This document shows, piece by piece, positions 46,226 to 56,871 of a stretch of 64,000 bases of DNA. The notes under the pieces are model-generated. The model ran no database searches. It saw only the letters and a list, made by a program, of their open reading frames with translations, and was not told the DNA's origin. The stretch is taken from positions 62,001-126,000 of the forward strand of contig CAINED010000021.1 in the NCBI GenBank assembly GCA_903847605.1, given 5' to 3'. Source of the DNA: an uncultured Hyphomicrobiales bacterium (GTDB lineage Bacteria; Pseudomonadota; Alphaproteobacteria; Rhizobiales; Beijerinckiaceae). The position numbers and the translations under genes were made by a program. The stretch's first letter is position 1, and each line of letters starts with the position of its first letter.

Positions 46226-48169
46226 CTAGAAATCCACTTCGTCGTCATCTGTCGCCGGCGCATCGTCATAGGCGACATCTTCGCTGACCGTCGGCCCTTC
46301 GATGGTAGCCGGCGTTTCGGCGACAGCGTCCGGCTTGCGGACGGAAACAATCTGCGCGCCGGGGAAATGTTCGAGTACCGAGCGCACCAGCGGATCGGCG
46401 CGCACGCCGACGAGTTCCTGTTCTTCCTTCGCGCGCTTCTGCTGCTGCAGGGTCGGCGCGCCCTCTCCGGAGGAAATCGCCACCATCCAGCGCTGGCCGG
46501 TCCATTCCTGCAACCGCCGCATGAGATTGGCGGCAACCTGAGGCGACGCGCCATCCGCCAATGCAAATTCGATCGCGCCCTGTTCGAAACGCACCAGATG
46601 CACGTCGCGTTCGAGCGCCATCCGCAATTGAATGTCGCGATTGACTTGCGCCAGCGCAACGATGTCTTCGAACTGCGCGATCTGCACGCGCGGGGCCGAA
46701 GATTCCTGGACACGAGCGGACGGCGCATTGCGCTCGAAAGCCTGCGGGGCTTGCAGGGGCGCGGCGCGTGACGTCGCGAGCATCGGACGGGCCCCCGCCT
46801 GCGCCTGCGCGCCGCCGCCACTCGTCCCTGCGCTTGCGCCCGAAGGCGCAGCGCCAGAACCGCCATCCTGCATCCGCATTTCGCGCAGGCGGCGCAGGGC
46901 GTCTTCCGGAGTCGGCAGGTCGGCGGCATAAGCCAGGCGCACGAGCACCATGTCGGCGGCGGCCAGCGGGCGCGGCGATGTCTTTACATCGCCGAGGCCC
47001 TTGGTGATGACCTGCCAGGCGCGCGTGAGCGTCTGCATCGACAGCGCGTTCGCAAATTGCGGCCCGCGCGTGCGCTCGTCCTGCGTCACCGAGGCGTCGA
47101 AGCGCATGTCCGGCGCGACCTTCAGGCGTGTCACGAAATGTACGAATTCCGCGAGATCGGTGAGCACCAGCGCGGGGTCCGCGCCCTGATCGTATTGTTC
47201 TTTCAGATTGTCGAGCGCCGATGCGACATCGCCTTTCATCACGGATTCGAAGAGGTCGATGATGCGGCCGCGATCGCCGGTGCCGAGCATGGCGCGGATC
47301 GCGCGCGCATTGACCGTGTCCGCGCCGGACGAAGCGCCATAGGCAATCGCCTGATCGAGCAGCGAAAGGGAATCGCGCACGGAGCCTTCCGCCGCGCGGG
47401 CCAGAAGCGCGAGGGCGCGATCGTTGATCTTCACGCCTTCCTTTTCGCAGATGCCGGCAAGATGTTTGATCAGCACATCGGCTTCCACGCGGCGCAGGTC
47501 GAAGCGCTGGCAGCGCGAGCGCACGGTGACCGGCACTTTCTCGATTTCAGTCGTTGCGAAGAGAAAGCGCACATGCTCCGGCGGTTCTTCCAGCGTCTTC
47601 AACAGAGCGTTGAAGGCGTTCTTGGTGAGCATATGCACTTCGTCGATGATATAGACCTTGCAGCGCGCTGTGACGGGCCGGTAACGCACGCCCTCGATGA
47701 TGTCGCGTACGTCGTCGACGCCGGTGTGCGAGGCGGCGTCCATCTCGATCACGTCGACATGCCGCGACTCGATGATTGCCTGGCAATGCGAGCCAAGCTC
47801 CTTCATGTCGATGGTCGGTTTGTCGATGGCGGGCCGGCCGTCCTTCGCGGGCAATTGGTAATTGAAGGCGCGCGCGAGAATGCGCGCCGTCGTCGTCTTG
47901 CCGACGCCGCGCACGCCGGTCAGCATATAGGCCTGATGGATGCGGCCGAGTTCGAAAGCGTTGGTGAGCGTGCGCACCATCGCCTCCTGCCCGATCAGAT
48001 CTTCGAACGACGAGGGACGGTATTTGCGCGCCAGCACGCGATAAGGCGAGGCGCCGGAGGGGGCGGGCGCAGGACCCAGATCGAGCCCGAGAGAAGGCTC
48101 TTCGGACGCGCCCTGTCCGGTGGCGCCGGAAGCGCCGCCAGCCGTGCTCTGGGACTGCCGGTCATCCAT
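46226..48169 (-). CDS. dnaX: DNA polymerase III subunit gamma/tau
   Basis: The 647-residue protein has RKYRPSSFEDLIGQEAMVRTL, the Walker A site GVRGVGKTTTARILA, the sensor region IIDEVHMLTKNAFNALLKTLEEPP (near residues 174-197, named here by its DEVH box) and a lid domain. A proline/alanine-rich linker near 430-490 leads to the tau C-terminal domain. It is the clamp-loader motor. It follows ffs and precedes ybaB, the standard bacterial order. A translational frameshift to gamma was not evident. Confidence 0.96.
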   Translation of the reverse strand: MDDRQSQSTAGGASGATGQGASEEPSLGLDLGPAPAPSGASPYRVLARKYRPSSFEDLIGQEAMVRTLTNAFELGRIHQAYMLTGVRGVGKTTTARILARAFNYQLPAKDGRPAIDKPTIDMKELGSHCQAIIESRHVDVIEMDAASHTGVDDVRDIIEGVRYRPVTARCKVYIIDEVHMLTKNAFNALLKTLEEPPEHVRFLFATTEIEKVPVTVRSRCQRFDLRRVEADVLIKHLAGICEKEGVKINDRALALLARAAEGSVRDSLSLLDQAIAYGASSGADTVNARAIRAMLGTGDRGRIIDLFESVMKGDVASALDNLKEQYDQGADPALVLTDLAEFVHFVTRLKVAPDMRFDASVTQDERTRGPQFANALSMQTLTRAWQVITKGLGDVKTSPRPLAAADMVLVRLAYAADLPTPEDALRRLREMRMQDGGSGAAPSGASAGTSGGGAQAQAGARPMLATSRAAPLQAPQAFERNAPSARVQESSAPRVQIAQFEDIVALAQVNRDIQLRMALERDVHLVRFEQGAIEFALADGASPQVAANLMRRLQEWTGQRWMVAISSGEGAPTLQQQKRAKEEQELVGVRADPLVRSVLEHFPGAQIVSVRKPDAVAETPATIEGPTVSEDVAYDDAPATDDDEVDF

Positions 48170-48227
48170 GCCGCGCCTTGCGAGATTTGCGCCGGCCCGG
48201 CGGCCGGAACGCCCTGAAATCAGTGAG

Positions 48228-48326
48228 GTGGGAGGCTGGACAGAGACCCGCCCGGTCTCGTTAGGGCTGCTTCCTTCCGGACCTGACCCGATTGGCGAGT
48301 GGAACGTCCACCGCCAACCTCCCGGC
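48228..48326 (-). ncRNA. ffs: SRP RNA (4.5S type)
   Basis: The minus strand reads through the invariant SRP domain IV: GGTCCGGAAGGAAGCAGC followed by CCTAACGA. The 5' segment GGGAGGTTGG pairs with the 3' segment CCAGCCTCCC to close the long hairpin, giving about 99 nt. It binds Ffh and directs membrane protein targeting. It lies just upstream of dnaX, as in many bacteria. Exact ends are estimated from the closing stem. Confidence 0.93.
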
Positions 48327-49351: not shown

Positions 49352-50386
49352 CTACCGTCCCGCGAGCTTGCGCGAAAACTCGACTTCAAGCGCGTTGATC
49401 TGCTTGGAATGTTCGATGGACTGCATGGCCGTGTGATAGGAGAGCTTTCGTCCTTCCAGCAGTTTGGCGGTTTCGGTCCCTTTGACGAAGGCGTTGCCGC
49501 GCTTGGTCATGCTCTCGAACTTGATCGCGCCTTCCGGGCTCGCGAGCCAGGCGATGAAGAGGCGGGCCGTGTTGGGGCTCTTGCCGAATTTCATCACAGC
49601 CCCCGAGATCATGCCCATCGCCGTCGGCTCCATGCTGGCGATCTTTACCGGCGCGCCTTTCTCGACGATGCGAATGGCGGAATCATAGGCGGTGATGGCC
49701 AGCGCGAGCTCGCCGGAGCCTACGGCCTGCGACAACGGGAACAGGCCTTCGAAAAGCCGTGGCTTCAACGAGGCGAGTTGTTCCAGCAGGGCGCGCGCCT
49801 TGGCCTCTCCGACAGCGGATGAAAGATTGACGAAGGCTGCCGCGCGCATCCAGTGGCCCGTGCGTCCCTTCCACTTGTCGGCGACCGCGTCGTCCCATGT
49901 GCGCGGCGCTTCGTCGTCCTTCACCAGGTTGGTGTTGTAGAGAACGACGTAAGGCGGCGTCAGCGCCGAAACAAGAAAGGGCGTCGGGGCAAGAGCGGGA
50001 TCGACGCCGAGCGCGGCAGCTTCCGTGTCCAGCACGAAACCGCGATCGCGCAGCAGTTTCACGATGGAGGCGTCGTTCAGCAATATGTCCGTCGTCGGCC
50101 CGCCTGCGGTGCTTTCCTGAATGATGCGCGCCGTCTTCTGCGCCGAGGGCACCGAAATAAACTCGGTCTTCTTCACGAACGGATAGACCTTGCGAAATGT
50201 CGCCAGAACTTCTTCCGTGGCGTCGCGATCGTAGTGATCGTACCAGAGGAGGCCCGCCTCGCCTTTCGCCGCTTCGACAATCTGCTCTTTCGTTGCGGCA
50301 TGAGCTTGCAGCGGCGCTGCTAGTCCCGCTGCAGTTGCAGCGATCCCACGCAGGACGAAACGGCGGTCAAGAATTTGGTCTTGCAT
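49352..50386 (-). CDS. ABC transporter periplasmic binding protein, FbpA-like class
   Basis: The 344-residue product has a twin-arginine-like signal (DRRFVLRGIAATAAGLAAPL) ending near AHAAT, then KEQIVEAAKGEAGLLWYDHY. Type II binding-protein segments follow (TDILLNDASIVKLLRDRG, PYVVLYNTNLV, WDDAVADKWKGRTG). This class carries iron(III), phosphonates or similar ligands. GGAGGG lies before ATG 50386. It is the last gene of the minus-strand operon that contains the selenoprotein, 51 bases after the permease. Confidence 0.85.
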   Translation of the reverse strand: MQDQILDRRFVLRGIAATAAGLAAPLQAHAATKEQIVEAAKGEAGLLWYDHYDRDATEEVLATFRKVYPFVKKTEFISVPSAQKTARIIQESTAGGPTTDILLNDASIVKLLRDRGFVLDTEAAALGVDPALAPTPFLVSALTPPYVVLYNTNLVKDDEAPRTWDDAVADKWKGRTGHWMRAAAFVNLSSAVGEAKARALLEQLASLKPRLFEGLFPLSQAVGSGELALAITAYDSAIRIVEKGAPVKIASMEPTAMGMISGAVMKFGKSPNTARLFIAWLASPEGAIKFESMTKRGNAFVKGTETAKLLEGRKLSYHTAMQSIEHSKQINALEVEFSRKLAGR

Positions 50387-50437
50387 GTTTCCCTCCATCA
50401 GGCCGGCATTGCTGCCATCATCGAAGCATCTTTGTTG

Positions 50438-52225
50438 TCACAACTCCATCCCTCGCCGCGACGGCCGCGCAAAAAGCGCGGTAAGCGCCAGCAGGAACAG
50501 CATCAGCAGCACCGCAAGCGCTGCCGCTTTTTCCGGACTGCCGGTTTCCCAGAAATTGAAGAGAATGGTCGAGAGCACGCTGTTGCGGCCGGACTGCAAC
50601 ATCACCGCAATGGAAAATTCCCGCACCGAATGAACGAGAACCCAGATCGCCATGGCGACGATGGCCGGTACGAGAAGCGGCAGGACGATGCGTCCCATCA
50701 CCGAAAGCCACGATGCGCCAGCGACGGAGGCCGCTTCCTCGAGTTCGCCTGTCAATTGCAGGAGGCCCGATTGCATCATGCGCGACGCGACCGGCAGATA
50801 GGCGATGATGTGGCCGATGGCGATGAGCCATACCGTGCCGTAGATCGGCACCGAGCGCACGGTAAATGCGGCGAAGACCAGCGCGACGCCGATCATCAGA
50901 TGCGGCACGCCGAGCGGGATCATCGCGAGCACGTCGAGCATCCAGGCCTTGCGCACTTTCGACTTCAGCACGATCCACGCCGTTACCAACGCGATAAGGA
51001 CAAGCGCCACCGTCGCCGTGACGGCGACCAGCGCGGAATTCAGCGCCGCCTCGTGCAGGCGCGGGCTTGCGAGAATATCCCCATAGGCGCGGAATGAGGC
51101 GCGCTTGAGCATGTCGGTGCTGAAGCCGGCGAAGTAGGGAATGACGCTCGCCCAGAGCAGCGCGAGAAACGGCAGGACGACTGCCAGCACGAAATAGAGC
51201 GAGGCGAAGGTGACGGCTGCACCGCGCCATTTCCCGAGCGCCACCTGCGCGGGCCTGTAGCCCTTGCCCGTGATGGTCGCATAGCGCGCGCCCTGCTTGA
51301 TCGTGTTGCGATAGACAATGAGGCTCACGACCAGCAACAGCAGGTACATCGTATTGATGGCGGCTGCCGCGCCGTATTCGGGAAAGCCCGAAGCCGGCGT
51401 CATCAATCGAAAGATCTCGATGCTCATCAGATCGACGCGGCCGGGAATACCAATCACAGCAGGCACATCGAAGGCGAGCATGCCGATGATGAGCTGGATG
51501 GTAATAACGCTCAGGAGCGCAGGCGTCAGGATCGGCAAACCGATGCGCCAGAGAATCTGCCAGCGTCCTGCGCCTGCCGACAGCGCTGCTTCTTCGAGCG
51601 AGGGATCCAGTGCGCGGATCGCTGGCGACAGCATCAGCACCGATGTCGGCACGAAGGCGAGCGCCTGCACGAAGATCGCGCCGCCAAGAGAATAAATGTT
51701 GAAATAATTTTCGACGGGGCCGATGAGTGGATGCAAGGCTGCCGACACGATGCCGATCTTCGGCGCAAGAACCAGCGACCATCCGATGGCGAGAAGCAGC
51801 GGCGGCGTCGCCATGGGCATGACGATCAGCGCGCGAAACAGATTGCGCGCCGGAAGGTCGGTGCGTTCGAGCAGCCAGCTCAACGTCGCGCCGAGCACCA
51901 GCGCAAGCAGCGTGCTGCCCGCTGCAAAGACCAGCGTGTTCGCCGCCAGCTTCCAGTAGCGCAGATTGCCCCAGACGGTCTGGTAATGCTCGAGCGTCCA
52001 GCCGCTACCCGATGGCAGGCCATCGGGACGCAAGCTGCCGGTGAGAAGAATGGCGAGCGGGACGATTGTCAGCAGCGCCAGAAAAATTCCTGCGCCTGTG
52101 ACCGCGGCGCGAATGCCGAATACATCAAGGATCTTCAGGCCGCTCGAACCACCGCCACCCGGCAAGGCGACGGCCCCGGCGGGGCCGTGCGCAAGTTCCA
52201 CATTCGAGGTCGGGCGCCCGCTCAA
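50438..52225 (-). CDS. ABC transporter permease, two fused permease domains (FbpB-like)
   Basis: The 595-residue product holds two permease units with about twelve helices in total. Each has an EAA loop that contacts the ATPase: EEAALSAGAGRWQILWRIG near 211 and EEAASVAGASWLSVMGRIV near 496. This fused layout is typical of FbpB-type importers. The start TTG 52225 follows GGAGACGCAC. It lies 45 bases after the selenoprotein gene. No ATPase gene is seen in the operon, so the energy subunit must be encoded elsewhere. Confidence 0.88.
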   Translation of the reverse strand: MSGRPTSNVELAHGPAGAVALPGGGGSSGLKILDVFGIRAAVTGAGIFLALLTIVPLAILLTGSLRPDGLPSGSGWTLEHYQTVWGNLRYWKLAANTLVFAAGSTLLALVLGATLSWLLERTDLPARNLFRALIVMPMATPPLLLAIGWSLVLAPKIGIVSAALHPLIGPVENYFNIYSLGGAIFVQALAFVPTSVLMLSPAIRALDPSLEEAALSAGAGRWQILWRIGLPILTPALLSVITIQLIIGMLAFDVPAVIGIPGRVDLMSIEIFRLMTPASGFPEYGAAAAINTMYLLLLVVSLIVYRNTIKQGARYATITGKGYRPAQVALGKWRGAAVTFASLYFVLAVVLPFLALLWASVIPYFAGFSTDMLKRASFRAYGDILASPRLHEAALNSALVAVTATVALVLIALVTAWIVLKSKVRKAWMLDVLAMIPLGVPHLMIGVALVFAAFTVRSVPIYGTVWLIAIGHIIAYLPVASRMMQSGLLQLTGELEEAASVAGASWLSVMGRIVLPLLVPAIVAMAIWVLVHSVREFSIAVMLQSGRNSVLSTILFNFWETGSPEKAAALAVLLMLFLLALTALFARPSRRGMEL

Positions 52226-52270: not shown

Positions 52271-53896
52271 CTATCGCCAGTCGTCCACGCTGATGGTCGT
52301 CACGTAATCCGCGCCGAAGATTTTCCACGCGCCCTGCGTCTCGCCGCCAGTCACGACGACATTGACCTCTTCGGGCTCGTACATCTGCACGATCTCGTCA
52401 GGCGCTGCCTTGAGACGCGAGGCATAAGGCTCGACGCCGGCCACAGCATGCGGACGGATGAGCGTCTGCATCCACTGATCGTCCCAGTATTCGCGCGCCG
52501 GCAGCCGCGCATGCGCGACGACCCAGTCGATCAGCGACTGCTTGGTTTTGATGCCCTTGTCGACGAACAGGCGCGCGACGATGGGATCCATGATCAGACA
52601 GGGCGGCAGATAGGCCGATGCCTGCAGGCTGCGCGTGAATTTTTCTTCCCACGTCTCGCGCGGGCCGAAGCCTTCATGGATGTAGCGGTTGCCGACGAAG
52701 ACGCTGACGGCGCTCTCGTCCTTGCGCTTGCCCTTCTGCACATGCAGCGGCTCCCACGGGCTGCGCTCCTCATTTTCCGCGAAGACGAGGCTGTAGGCGA
52801 GCGGATTGCCGAGCGTACCCATATAGGTTTCGCCCGGCACCGACCCGCCCTGTCCGTTCTGCGACAGGAGGCTGTAGGCGCGGCCGATGGTGACATTGGC
52901 GTGGTTGTACGGACCCATCGCGCCGATGCCGCTGTTCATCCCGATCTCCTGGCGAACGGGGCCGTTGACGACGCCGAAGGCGACCTGCGAGGTCGTCGAG
53001 CCCTGTCGCGAAGTCTGGTTCGAGGCGGCGATGGCGAGAATGACCGGCAGATATTCAGGCTTTGCGCCGGCCATCACCGCGTTCACCGCGACCTTCTCGA
53101 CCGTATATTCCCAGCTCTCGCGGAAATTGCCGGCTTTCATGCGGCCGACCACCTTGTCCGGCGGCTGCGACGTGCCTTTCAGCATGGCCGCGACGCGCTC
53201 CTGCGTCGGCAGGACGATGGGCATGAAATCGGTCCAGCGGTTCTCCTCGAAGAGCTTGCGCAGGTTTTCTTCAGTATCGGGCGCGAGCAGGCGCGGCGTC
53301 GTGCGCTCGAATGTCTCGCCCGTGAGGTCCGCGCCTTCGAGCGGACGCAGGAGACCCTCGACCACTTCCTGCATGAACGGACGGCCGGTTACGGCGTCCT
53401 TGCCCTCGATGTATTCGCGCAATTGCGCGGGCGTGCGGTCCACGACCGGTTGCGGCACGAAGGCGTGGCGCATGGTGGGAATGCCGCGCAGGCGCGCAGT
53501 CGATTTCGCGACGCGCTGGAAAATATGCGTATGGACGGCAATGCTCGGCACGCCCATTTCTTCCATCAATGCGGTGAGCCCCACGACCGTGGGGCTACAG
53601 GAGCTTCATAAGCCGACGCCGAGAATCGCCGCGCTGCCGTCGGCGGCGATCTTCTTGCGCATGTCGGGATCGTCGACCCAGCTTTCGCGCGGGCGGATGA
53701 TGCGCGCATCGACCTTGGGCATGTTTTTCGCGAACCAGTCCTTCAACTGGTCGACGAAAGCCGCCGAATTGTCGAACAGGCAATCGACGAGATAGACAAC
53801 CTTACCGTCGAGGCTCTGCAGGCGGTTGGCCAGGCGCTTGCCGGTCACTTTGGGCGGATAACCGCGCGGATCGTGAACGGTGAGCTTTTCGATCAT
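52271..53896 (-). CDS. UGSC-family selenoprotein with in-frame UGA (Sec97)
   Basis: Two open frames, 53609-53896 and 52271-53605, share one reading frame and are parted by a single TGA at 53606-53608. Read through as selenocysteine, they give 541 residues. ATG 53896 has GGAGGA 7 bases upstream. The UGA falls between a hydrophobic strand (AAILGVGL) and SSCSPTVVGLTALMEEMG, so residues 97-100 are U-S-S-C, a redox-type UxxC before a helix, matching the UGSC family layout with Ser for Gly. A SECIS-like hairpin follows. The remaining 440 residues are unbroken and end GAWKIFGADYVTTISVDDWR. The reaction is unknown; a thiol/selenol redox role is inferred. Read as ordinary stop, both halves would be broken. 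Confidence 0.85.
53577..53596 (-). promoter_or_regulatory. SECIS-like hairpin for selenocysteine insertion
   Basis: On the minus strand, 9 nt after the UGA, AGCCCCAC pairs perfectly with GTGGGGCT around a GGTC loop. The first loop G is 18 nt after the UGA. E. coli fdhF has the same GGUC apical loop. The bulged U of fdhF is not seen in this stem. Confidence 0.75.
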
Positions 53897-53961: not shown

Positions 53962-54570
53962 TCAAGCGCGAGCGGCGGCGCGGTACTCTTGCAAATAGTC
54001 TTCCATGAAGTCGAAGCGGTCGTTGCCCCACCACATCTGCCCTTCCGCGATCATGGTGGGCACGCCGAATATGCCGTCGGCATTGGCTTTTATGGTTTCG
54101 GTCTGAAGCCGCTCCGTCGCTTCCTCGCCTGCAACGAATGCATCGAATTCCAGGACGCTCCAACCGCAATGCTGCGCCAGTTCCTCGATCAGTGCGCGAT
54201 CGATCATGCTGCAGCCTTCGCCCCAGACGCGATGGTAGGCGTGCGTGATGTAAAGCTCGATATGGCCGCGATCGAGCGCGAAGAAACAGCCGCGATTGAG
54301 AATCCCGCCCTCGTAATGCGCGGGGGTTGCGATGGGAACGCCATAGCGTTTGGCCCAGCGGCGCTGGTCTTCTTTCATATATTTAATACGGATCGGCATG
54401 GTGCGGGCGGAGGGTCCAGTATTTCCGGCGCGCAGCTTGAGGTCCGCGAGATCGACGGGGTGAAAAACGATCTCCCGTTCGAACCGTTTCGCGATGGCAG
54501 GCAGGCGCTGCCATGCGAAATAGCTGAAGGGACTCATGAAGTCGAAATAGAAGTCGATTGGCCCAGCCAT
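53962..54570 (-). CDS. DsbA-fold protein, 2-hydroxychromene-2-carboxylate isomerase family
   Basis: The 202-residue product opens IDFYFDFMSPFSYFAWQRLP, with the serine in the position that replaces the DsbA catalytic cysteine in HCCA isomerases. It ends with GIFGVPTMIAEGQMWWGNDR, the cis-proline and substrate region. Such glutathione-dependent enzymes act in aromatic degradation. It sits 4 bases after the MDR reductase and 65 bases before the selenoprotein gene, in one operon. It may rearrange a glutathione adduct, though the pathway is unknown. Confidence 0.86.
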   Translation of the reverse strand: MAGPIDFYFDFMSPFSYFAWQRLPAIAKRFEREIVFHPVDLADLKLRAGNTGPSARTMPIRIKYMKEDQRRWAKRYGVPIATPAHYEGGILNRGCFFALDRGHIELYITHAYHRVWGEGCSMIDRALIEELAQHCGWSVLEFDAFVAGEEATERLQTETIKANADGIFGVPTMIAEGQMWWGNDRFDFMEDYLQEYRAAARA

Positions 54571-54574
54571 GTCT

Positions 54575-55498
54575 TTACCGGATCGCGAAGACGAGCTTGC
54601 CGCGGAGGTGACGCGCTTCCGAAATCTCATGCGCCTTTGCGGCATCCTGCAGCGAGAACAACGTCACCGGCGGAACGGTGATGGCCTTCGCGGCCAGCAA
54701 TTCGCCGATGCGTTCGAGATGTTTGCGGCTGCGGCCAACGGCCGGGCGAATGCTCTGGATGTCCGCGCGCGGCGGGGTCGGCGGCTGCTGACCACCCGCG
54801 ATGAAAGCCGCGCGACCGCCATGCTTGAGAACGGCAAAAGCCGACGCCGTGGCTTCGCCGCCAACCGTATCGAAGGCGCAATCGCAATCCTTCACCACTT
54901 CGGCGACATTCTGCGTGTTATAGTCGATCACTTCGTCGGCGCCGAGCGAGCGCACGTAATCGGCATTGCGCGCGCTGGCAGTCGTGACGACATGTGCGCC
55001 CAGATGTTTCGCATATTGAATGGCGAACCCGGCGACGCCGCCCGCCCCGCCGTGAATGAGAATCTTCTCGCCCTTCTGCAGCTTCAGGGATTCATCGAGC
55101 GTGACGATCGCCGTCAGCCCGATCAGCGCCAGAGCCGCAGCGTCGACATGCGACATCTGCGCGGGCTTCTTCGCGGTGATCGCGGCCTTGATCGCGATCT
55201 TCTCGCAATAGGTTCCTTCCTGTCCTGGCGGACAGACGGCAAAGACTTCATCGCCGATGGCAAGATCGCTCACGTTCGCGCCGACCGCGCTCACGACGCC
55301 GGAAAAGTCGCGGCCGAGCACATAGGGAAACTGCAATTTCGAACCATAGGCGTTGACCCGAACTTTCCAGTCCGCGGCATTGACGCTGGCGGCATGGATA
55401 TCGACCAGAACCTCGTCCGGGCCCGGCACGGGATCGGGAAGATCGTCGTAACGGAACATGTCGACGCCGCCATGGGCGACGAGATAAGCGGCTTTCAT
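54575..55498 (-). CDS. NADPH:quinone reductase-like MDR-family oxidoreductase
   Basis: The 307-residue product is a zinc-less MDR enzyme: MKAAYLVAHGGVDMFRYDDL start, VLGRDFSGVVSAVG near 70-83, and the NADPH motif ILIHGGAGGVAGFAIQYAK near 140-158. It would reduce enones, quinones or related electrophiles with NADPH. GGGAGA lies 8 bases before ATG 55498. It is the first gene of the operon that continues with the DsbA-fold protein and the selenoprotein. Promoter elements must lie in the 160 bases upstream. Confidence 0.87.
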   Translation of the reverse strand: MKAAYLVAHGGVDMFRYDDLPDPVPGPDEVLVDIHAASVNAADWKVRVNAYGSKLQFPYVLGRDFSGVVSAVGANVSDLAIGDEVFAVCPPGQEGTYCEKIAIKAAITAKKPAQMSHVDAAALALIGLTAIVTLDESLKLQKGEKILIHGGAGGVAGFAIQYAKHLGAHVVTTASARNADYVRSLGADEVIDYNTQNVAEVVKDCDCAFDTVGGEATASAFAVLKHGGRAAFIAGGQQPPTPPRADIQSIRPAVGRSRKHLERIGELLAAKAITVPPVTLFSLQDAAKAHEISEARHLRGKLVFAIR

Positions 55499-55659
55499 TT
55501 CAAGTTTCTCCCGGTGCGATTGAACCATCTTGTCCGGCGCTCAGGACTTTGTCGACTGCGCAAATCAGCATCCGCCTGATAGCGCGAAATTGCGCGCAGA
55601 AGCGCGCGACGCTTCGCGAGAACGAATCAACGCATGGCGCTCATTGATGGCGCGCCGCT

Positions 55660-56658
55660 CTAAAACGCCCCTTCGACTCCCGCCTTTCGCACGACATCGC
55701 CCCAATGCGCGATCTCGCTGACGATGAAGCTCTTGAGATCGGCCAGCGAGCGGTTCGGCAGGGGCAGAAAACCGTTGCGCACGATTTCGTCGGCCGTCGC
55801 CTTCTCGGCAAAGAAGCGATCGAGTTCCGCATGCAGCTTTGCGACGATTGGCGTCGGAGTTGCCGCGGGCGCAGCGAACATGAACCAGCCAGCCGCGTTG
55901 AATCCCGGCACGGTGTCGCCGATGGGCGGCACTTCGCTGAGCGAGGGGAAGCGCTGCGCCGTGCTGATGCCGATGGCGCGAACGCCGCCGCCGCGGATCG
56001 TGCCAAGCGAGGGACCGATATCCACCATCATCAGCGGCACATGGCCGGCGGCGACATCGTTGAGCGCAGGAAGACTGCCCTTGTAGGGCACCATGGTCAT
56101 CTTGAGGCCCGACATAGAACTCAGGAGTTCGATGAAGAGATGATGCGGCACGCCGGGTCCGGAGGTCGCATAGCTCAGCTGCCCCGGCCGTTCCTTCACA
56201 TAGGCGACGAATTCAGCGACTGTGTTGACCGGCAAGGAGGGGTTAACGACGAGTACGAAAGGCGTGCCGGCGACAAGCGCCAGCGGCGTGAAATCCTTCG
56301 CCGGATCGTAGGAGAGCTTCTTGTAGAGCGTGACGTTAACCGCGAGATTTGTGCCGGCCCCGAGCAACAAAGTATGTCCGTCCGGCGCTGCACGAGCGAC
56401 CGCCGTCGCGCCGACAATGCCGCCGGCCCCGGGCCGGTTTTCGATGACGACCGATTTGCCCCATGCGCTTTCGAGCCGCCGGCCGATCATGCGTGCGAGC
56501 ATATCGGTGCCGCCACCGGGTGCAAAAGGCACGACAATCGTGAGTTGTCGCGATGGATAGGAAGCTTCGCTATCCTGCGCTTTCGCACCCACCGACAGAG
56601 CAAGCGAAAGGGTCAGGCCCAGAATTGCGCCGAGCCTGCGGGACGGTTGCCACGCCAT
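55660..56658 (-). CDS. TctC/Bug-family binding protein
   Basis: The 332-residue product has a Sec signal (AILGLTLSLALSVGAKAQ) and the Bug hallmarks LTIVVPFAPGGGTDMLARMI and VVIENRPGAGGIVGATAVAR, plus PDGHTLLLG. It binds an unknown acid in the periplasm. ATG 56658 follows GGAGGATC. It lies upstream of the selenoprotein operon on the same strand with a 161-base gap, so co-transcription is possible but not clear. It is divergent from a histidine kinase gene. Confidence 0.88.
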   Translation of the reverse strand: MAWQPSRRLGAILGLTLSLALSVGAKAQDSEASYPSRQLTIVVPFAPGGGTDMLARMIGRRLESAWGKSVVIENRPGAGGIVGATAVARAAPDGHTLLLGAGTNLAVNVTLYKKLSYDPAKDFTPLALVAGTPFVLVVNPSLPVNTVAEFVAYVKERPGQLSYATSGPGVPHHLFIELLSSMSGLKMTMVPYKGSLPALNDVAAGHVPLMMVDIGPSLGTIRGGGVRAIGISTAQRFPSLSEVPPIGDTVPGFNAAGWFMFAAPAATPTPIVAKLHAELDRFFAEKATADEIVRNGFLPLPNRSLADLKSFIVSEIAHWGDVVRKAGVEGAF

Positions 56659-56871
56659 TTGATCCTCCCGAGTTTGGCAAACAGCCGTTTCACTGTGAAA
56701 TTCTCGAGTTTGCACATCGATTGTGCACTGTTCTTGGTTCCACCGTCAATTTCGCACGTTTGCGGCCGCGCGAAAAAGTTCCATCGCGCGCGAAAAATAA
56801 ATTCGTGGGTTTCATCGGAGTTCCATGCAACATTTGGCGCATCGAACCTCGACTGTTTCTGGAGTATCCGA

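Follow-up and report, generated by a model that had tools for sequence, protein, structure and literature searches.

The frame of 541 codons that runs from 53896 to 52271 on the minus strand of the window, which is the whole 64,000-nt stretch of DNA analysed here, is, judged by its sequence, a true selenoprotein gene encoding one protein, and its residue 97 is almost certainly selenocysteine (Sec). The frame begins with an ATG preceded at 7 nt by GGAGG, ends with TAG, and contains a single in-frame TGA, at 53608-53606, which is codon 97 (Table 1). The earlier note had described this region as two frames in the same phase parted by one TGA, with a 541-residue readthrough free of any further stop, and the scan of the minus-strand frame bore this out; translation placed the UGA at the first position of a U-S-S-C motif, as claimed. 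The proposed location of this motif between a beta strand and a helix agrees with a structure model (mean pLDDT 90.4), in which U97 lies between strand 89-95 and helix 100-113. The explanation that best accounts for the data as a whole, to which we assign a probability of about 0.55, is that the protein is a Sec-dependent reductase, which would work like GrdB and PrdB, with the conserved domain fused to its UGSC domain, called CTD here, as the partner.

Table 1. Positions of the selenoprotein gene, its predicted elements and neighboring genes in the window
Feature	Positions	Strand	Basis or remark
Selenoprotein gene, UGSC domain and CTD fused	52271..53896	-	541 aa; open except for one TGA; full-length relatives
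UGSC domain, residues 7-162	53411..53878	-	PF24696, 79.9 bits, cut-off 25
UGA codon 97, predicted selenocysteine, position 1 of U-S-S-C	53606..53608	-	TGA or Cys codon in 81/81 matches
Predicted bacterial SECIS hairpin, 8-bp stem, GGUC loop, 9 nt past UGA	53577..53596	-	Fold, covariation
CTD, residues 172-541, conserved domain	52274..53383	-	38/385 alphaproteobacterial genomes
DSBA-like thioredoxin-domain protein, 65 nt upstream	53962..54645	-	PF01323, 156.5 bits; possible operon member
Quinone-oxidoreductase/alcohol-dehydrogenase-like protein	54575..55528	-	PF13602, PF00107, PF08240; unit membership uncertain
TctC-type solute-binding protein	55660..56715	-	PF03401; unit membership uncertain
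ABC transporter permease, 45 nt downstream	50438..52225	-	PF00528; relative also near the closest ortholog (L017)
Solute-binding protein adjoining the permease	49352..50398	-	PF13531

Two frames joined by a TGA carry no significance by themselves in a window as GC-rich as this one, where a script counted 11 such pairs of at least 541 codons (3 on the plus and 8 on the minus strand, both parts having at least 90 codons); hence, it is the conservation, and not the TGA-joined frame as such, that lifts the selenoprotein call above chance. Together with the output of a plain gene finder, which reports this gene as two frames, as had been foreseen, these 11 pairs are what could be said for the opposite reading, in which there is no selenoprotein, but a degenerating gene, an error in the sequence, or two proteins, the second of them starting from GTG 53584. 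The comparison with homologs argues strongly against it. Among 81 tblastn matches (79 loci, the best 80 of 110), codon 97 was TGA in 59, TGC in 20 and TGT in two, so that this position, at which the earlier note had asked for Sec or Cys, was occupied solely by these two residues. The in-frame UGA thus stands where homologs carry Cys, as is asked of a selenoprotein gene. The ratios of nonsynonymous to synonymous changes before and after the TGA were 0.11 and 0.09 against L017, 0.21 and 0.24 against L018, 0.27 and 0.24 against L019, and 0.48 and 0.33 against L020, and these values for the four nearest relatives show purifying selection on both sides of the TGA. The Cys forms run as one continuous frame, with the exception of L083 (5001-6647), a Cys-form relative carrying one additional internal stop. 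In a tree of 84 proteins, built quickly with SH-aLRT as the sole support measure and rooted at the midpoint, the 62 Sec rows are set apart from the 22 Cys rows by a single change; because the Cys rows are nested in the Sec rows under this root, the simplest reading, which rests on the midpoint root, is that Sec may have been replaced by Cys once.

The region just downstream of the UGA contains the predicted SECIS hairpin expected of a bacterial selenoprotein gene. The GGUC loop closed by a C-G pair follows the UGA in all 43 distinct Sec-form sequences, and the three pairs below the closing pair form in 42, 43 and 42 of them, with compensatory changes in two of the three. The data showed that cells changed on both sides of the helix numbered 30, compared with 11.7 (sd 2.5) in shuffles, while the covariation score and the percentage paired exceeded those of all 500 shuffles; neither the number of pairs with changes on both sides (4 versus 3.6 in shuffles) nor that of further pair types (9 versus 8.8) was in excess. 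When the partner strand was slid by 1 to 3 columns, the pairing dropped from 80.5% to at most 62.5%. The lower four pairs are kept in only 24 to 28 of the 43 Sec forms, because some relatives, those from Chloroflexota and Rokubacteria among them, have a different lower stem. No such helix is formed in the 22 Cys-form sequences (31.8% paired versus 30.4% in shuffles). The RNA stability of the 60 bases past the window TGA was not unusual (z -1.23), which is uninformative when taken alone.

The earlier note, which had taken the absence of selA, selB, selC (tRNA-Sec) and selD as one of two findings that would refute its claim, had called for a search of the genome, and all four were found in one cluster on another contig, C56, of the same genome. 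The matches of selA (595 bits, cut-off 268), selB (389 bits, cut-off 242) and tRNA-Sec (Rfam, 78 bits, cut-off 47; anticodon tca by ARAGORN) were all above their thresholds, and so was that of the selD domain (302 bits, cut-off 125), which is fused to a flavoprotein domain; the same fusion scores 475 bits to the model fusion_not_SelD, the cut-off of which is 700. A second Rfam match to tRNA-Sec in this genome was barely over the threshold (48.1 versus 47). The genome contains four copies of the gene, which are the window copy, TGA copies on C56 and C90, and a Cys copy on C78, and the C56 copy is located inside the Sec gene cluster. A relative of selA and/or selB was also detected in eight of 83 fused-gene loci (L019, L022, L031, L038, L039, L041, L042 and L096, the last being that of C56), when a weak selA-like match in L043 was left out of the count. 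Between tRNA-Sec and selD on C56 there is a second selenoprotein candidate, a peroxiredoxin-like frame (L096, 8945 to ~9420, minus strand) with one TGA at 9289-9287 in the context FYRGHW-U-PYC, whose part past the TGA matches AhpC-TSA. Taken together, the conservation, including the shared TGA or Cys codon, purifying selection and the continuous Cys forms, the hairpin and the Sec machinery rule out a pseudogene or a pair of genes, and any reading without a selenoprotein is extremely improbable.

The assignment of the protein to the UGSC family, which had been made for the whole frame, holds for residues 7-162, which match Pfam PF24696, while the other ~370 residues are a separate unnamed domain. 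The NCBIfam equivalog model NF041046 was not passed (57.9 bits, cut-off 125). All of 52 relatives match PF24696 (E up to 5), and besides UGSC the Pfam scan at this threshold gave merely scattered matches with E of at least 0.044. Fused and stand-alone UGSC domains belong to one family (hhalign E 1e-23). The literal U-G-S-C motif is absent from the window protein. The substitution of Ser for Gly, which had been regarded as a variant, is indeed present, but it is not peculiar to this gene; Ser follows U or C in all 81 tblastn matches (U/C-S-[STN]-C), whereas U-G-[SA]-C prevails in UGSC relatives that are encoded on their own. The window protein resembles the family in its N-terminal domain and in having Sec or Cys first in UxxC, while it differs in its U-S-[STN]-C type of motif, in the CTD fusion and in its score under the NCBIfam cut-off. 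In the phylum, PF24696 was matched in three of 200 genomes, a sample other than that of 385 used for the CTD. Among further PF24696 loci, L107 and L104 have TGA, and L105 has TGC; the L104 gene is the one also seen in L141.

The order of secondary structure elements in the UGSC model (E33-38 H44-58 E63-67 H77-86 E89-95 U97 H100-113 E118-123 H124-136) is that of a predicted open alpha/beta layout with U97 between a strand and a helix. A thioredoxin fold was also considered for the domain, and it was rejected on account of this order in the predicted model. A fold search with the full model gave a best E of 3.8e-4 but a TM below 0.2, which provided no usable relative. These data bear on another reading, in which the protein is a true selenoprotein but works as a thiol-disulfide or peroxide oxidoreductase, with the CTD serving in regulation or in the binding of a substrate protein. 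The UxxC motif and the occurrence of TrxR-like and CxxC partners, described below, would fit such an enzyme, and a thioredoxin-like fold was called likely in the accessible text of the 2008 survey (PMC2398784). On the other hand, the model does not have that fold, no thioredoxin is found among the best 50 of 1537 PDB matches, and the weak, putative kinship is to GrdB and not to thioredoxins; overall, an oxidoreductase of this kind appears rather unlikely, if still a serious competitor of the GrdB-like reductase.

The resemblance to GrdB is best visible in stand-alone UGSC proteins, 9 of 14 of which matched TIGR01917 (best E 1.2e-4). The other GrdB-type models were matched by fewer or as many of the 14 (GrdF by nine, TIGR01918 and GrdH by five each, PrdB by one, with E 0.17). 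The matches of fused proteins were weaker (TIGR01917 in four of 24, best 0.0031; PrdB in five of 24, best 0.015), and the window UGSC domain matched no GrdB or PrdB model at E up to 1, its second-best match being nitrile hydratase at a chance-level 0.0036. All GrdB matches are far below the curated GrdB and PrdB cut-offs, none of which was reached. In L105, the part matched by GrdH and GrdF spans the motif Cys, which in an ungapped alignment would fall around model position 347 to 351, and the Sec of GrdB is presumably near residue 350. PF07355 (GRDB) was found in two of 150 genomes, in both as a partial match, and it was not found in the genome studied here. According to the accessible part of a 2026 review, GrdB carries the motif UxxCxxC, and a motif of this type is present in most stand-alone UGSC proteins. 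In the available text of another study, an attack by Sec on C-N and C-F bonds is proposed for proteins of the GrdB type (PMC10838667). The stand-alone UGSC proteins are similar to GrdB, GrdF, GrdH and PrdB (of glycine, sarcosine, betaine and D-proline reductases) in their weak profile matches at the Sec site and in the UxxCxxC motif, while the fused form does not have the third Cys, and the CTD replaces the known partner subunits. The window gene may be distantly related to glycine reductase, and the chances that it would use GrdB-like nucleophilic chemistry seem to us about even.

The CTD had no match among Pfam or NCBIfam models. A profile built for it detected relatives in the genomes counted in Table 1, often in several copies each, and the loci of 29 genomes beyond the one studied here were taken in (L114-L142). 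Within the stretch covered at each locus, to which these counts are limited, a UGSC domain adjoins the CTD in 22 of the 29, and 21 of these 22 domains have TGA at the motif; the exception, L130, has C-G-S-S, in which Cys takes the place of Sec and Ser that of the second Cys. Five loci (L116, L117, L119, L122 and L127) contain a tandem CTD pair with no UGSC profile match nearby, and two (L134 and L139) have neither an adjacent UGSC domain nor a tandem CTD. By eye, the sequence ahead of the tandem CTDs of L116, L117, L119 and L122 had looked like a UGSC tail, but it matched neither UGSC profile at E up to 10. The CTD of the five tandem loci may work with a second kind of partner. Of 16 larger stretches, 14 had a called UGSC frame next to the CTD; in the other two (L151 and L154) this frame was uncalled, though UGSC was seen there as L131 and L135. 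The split CTD proteins of these stretches carry C-[PAH]-T-C ahead of the CTD in 15 of 16 cases, L157 being the exception, and this CxxC stretch may be thioredoxin-like, judging by its look and by one weak match (19.7 bits, cut-off 96.8) in L105, which is outside the 16. On the plasmid of Acidovorax sp. T1 (L161, 7001-8536), the UGSC gene is annotated up to the TGA, as 97 codons, and no gene is annotated for the CTD in its gene table, which is known to be incomplete. Haloarchaeal plasmids contain CTD-UGSC-CTD gene triplets with the Cys motif CGSC (L160, 5858-8557, and L162, 5983-8645), which stand among CoA-transferase, TAXI-TRAP and dehydrogenase genes. These data suggest that UGSC and CTD very probably act together. 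Among 40 CTD proteins, of which 24 are fused and 16 split, the residues shared by 39 or more include D223, E267, K268, N272, N311, R339, N347, E374 and E376. The best match of the CTD model (mean pLDDT 76.9) in a fold search was to class I fumarate hydratases, with E 0.008 and TM ~0.2, and profile searches of PDB sequences gave E of at least 1.6 or nothing.

A thioredoxin-reductase-like (TrxR-like) flavoprotein gene is located in 25 of 83 fused-gene loci, in 21 of them on the same strand and within 142 nt, and it accompanies Sec forms and Cys forms alike. The motif C-A-[STA]-C is present in 24 of the 25 flavoproteins, the remaining one (L028) being partial. The C56 copy has such a gene close by, the window copy does not, and 58 of the 83 loci have none within the stretch covered; as many loci are covered by short stretches, the counts are lower bounds. 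A TrxR-like relative is also present at three tandem-CTD loci (L116, L117 and L127, but not L119 and L122) and on a Variovorax plasmid, and a remote one in merely two of the 16 split stretches. The C56 flavoprotein resembles thioredoxin-disulfide reductase TIGR01292 (257 bits, with C-A-S-C), while it differs in falling under the cut-off of 343 and in being a neighbor of UGSC-CTD genes. Because it adjoins these genes, it is probably a dedicated reductase, and reduction of the UGSC-CTD protein by a TrxR-like partner is likely.

Genes of transport recur around the UGSC-CTD genes, as an ABC transporter and a TctC-type protein are encoded in the window, TctC-type proteins on the Acidovorax and Variovorax plasmids, and TAXI-TRAP components in haloarchaea. 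Such solute-binding proteins are numerous in these bacteria, and for this reason the recurrence could perhaps be partly due to chance. The neighbor genes were chosen by a GC3-based heuristic, which can miss genes, since clustering of all ORFs was swamped by shadow ORFs. Farther away in the window, a bacterial small SRP RNA (48227-48323, minus strand) is located just upstream of a 647-aa frame (46226-48169), which was labeled DnaX-like by eye. The neighborhood also has to be weighed with regard to a reading in which the UxxC site of a true selenoprotein binds or detoxifies metals or electrophiles and reduces no nutrient. Other Sec families are tied to mercury or other metals in the accessible part of the 2026 review, and the DSBA-like and quinone-oxidoreductase-like genes adjoin the window gene, which could be consistent with such a role; however, no metal-resistance family was found among six window proteins scanned, and the solute-binding, CoA-transferase and aldehyde-dehydrogenase genes near the archaeal relatives suggest metabolism. 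A role with metals or electrophiles is therefore improbable.

Judged by the sequence, UGA97 is almost certainly read as Sec under the direction of the predicted hairpin just past it and of the genome's own Sec machinery. If the protein is a reductase of the GrdB/PrdB kind, NAD(P)H would reduce the TrxR-like flavoprotein, and this flavoprotein, or else the N-terminal CxxC domain of the split CTD proteins, would reduce the U97-C100 pair. The U97 selenolate would attack a substrate placed by the CTD, after which U97 and C100 would form a selenenylsulfide recycled by the thiol system. A small organic molecule brought in by transport is the probable substrate. A still broader proposal, which we put forward tentatively, is that UGSC and CTD could form a widespread and so far unrecognized selenium-dependent class of reductive-cleavage enzymes, kin to glycine and D-proline reductases, with a new catalytic partner domain and often with a dedicated TrxR-like flavoprotein. 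With the same reserve, the range of this class could take in Proteobacteria, Chloroflexota and Rokubacteria, as well as haloarchaea, whose forms have Cys instead of Sec.

Selenoproteins of the UGSC family have been described before, as has a fusion of UGSC with an unnamed domain. In the available text of the 2008 survey, UGSC ranks with the most frequent selenoproteins of marine data, with 255 sequences, and a UGSC/Unknown_1 fusion selenoprotein is described (PMC2398784). The latter is similar to the window protein, as in both cases a single selenoprotein joins UGSC to a conserved domain that has no name; Unknown_1 might or might not be the CTD. UGSC selenoproteins have also been reported in organisms with another Sec codon, according to the accessible literature. 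The accessible text of open-licence UGSC accounts gives no function, and neither the pairing with the CTD, nor the TrxR-like partner, nor the possible kinship to GrdB was found there. Such genes are easily lost in annotation, as illustrated by the window gene, which is split, and by the Acidovorax plasmid gene, which ends at the TGA. The pairing with the CTD, the redox neighbors and the resemblance to GrdB make the function of UGSC proteins a testable hypothesis.
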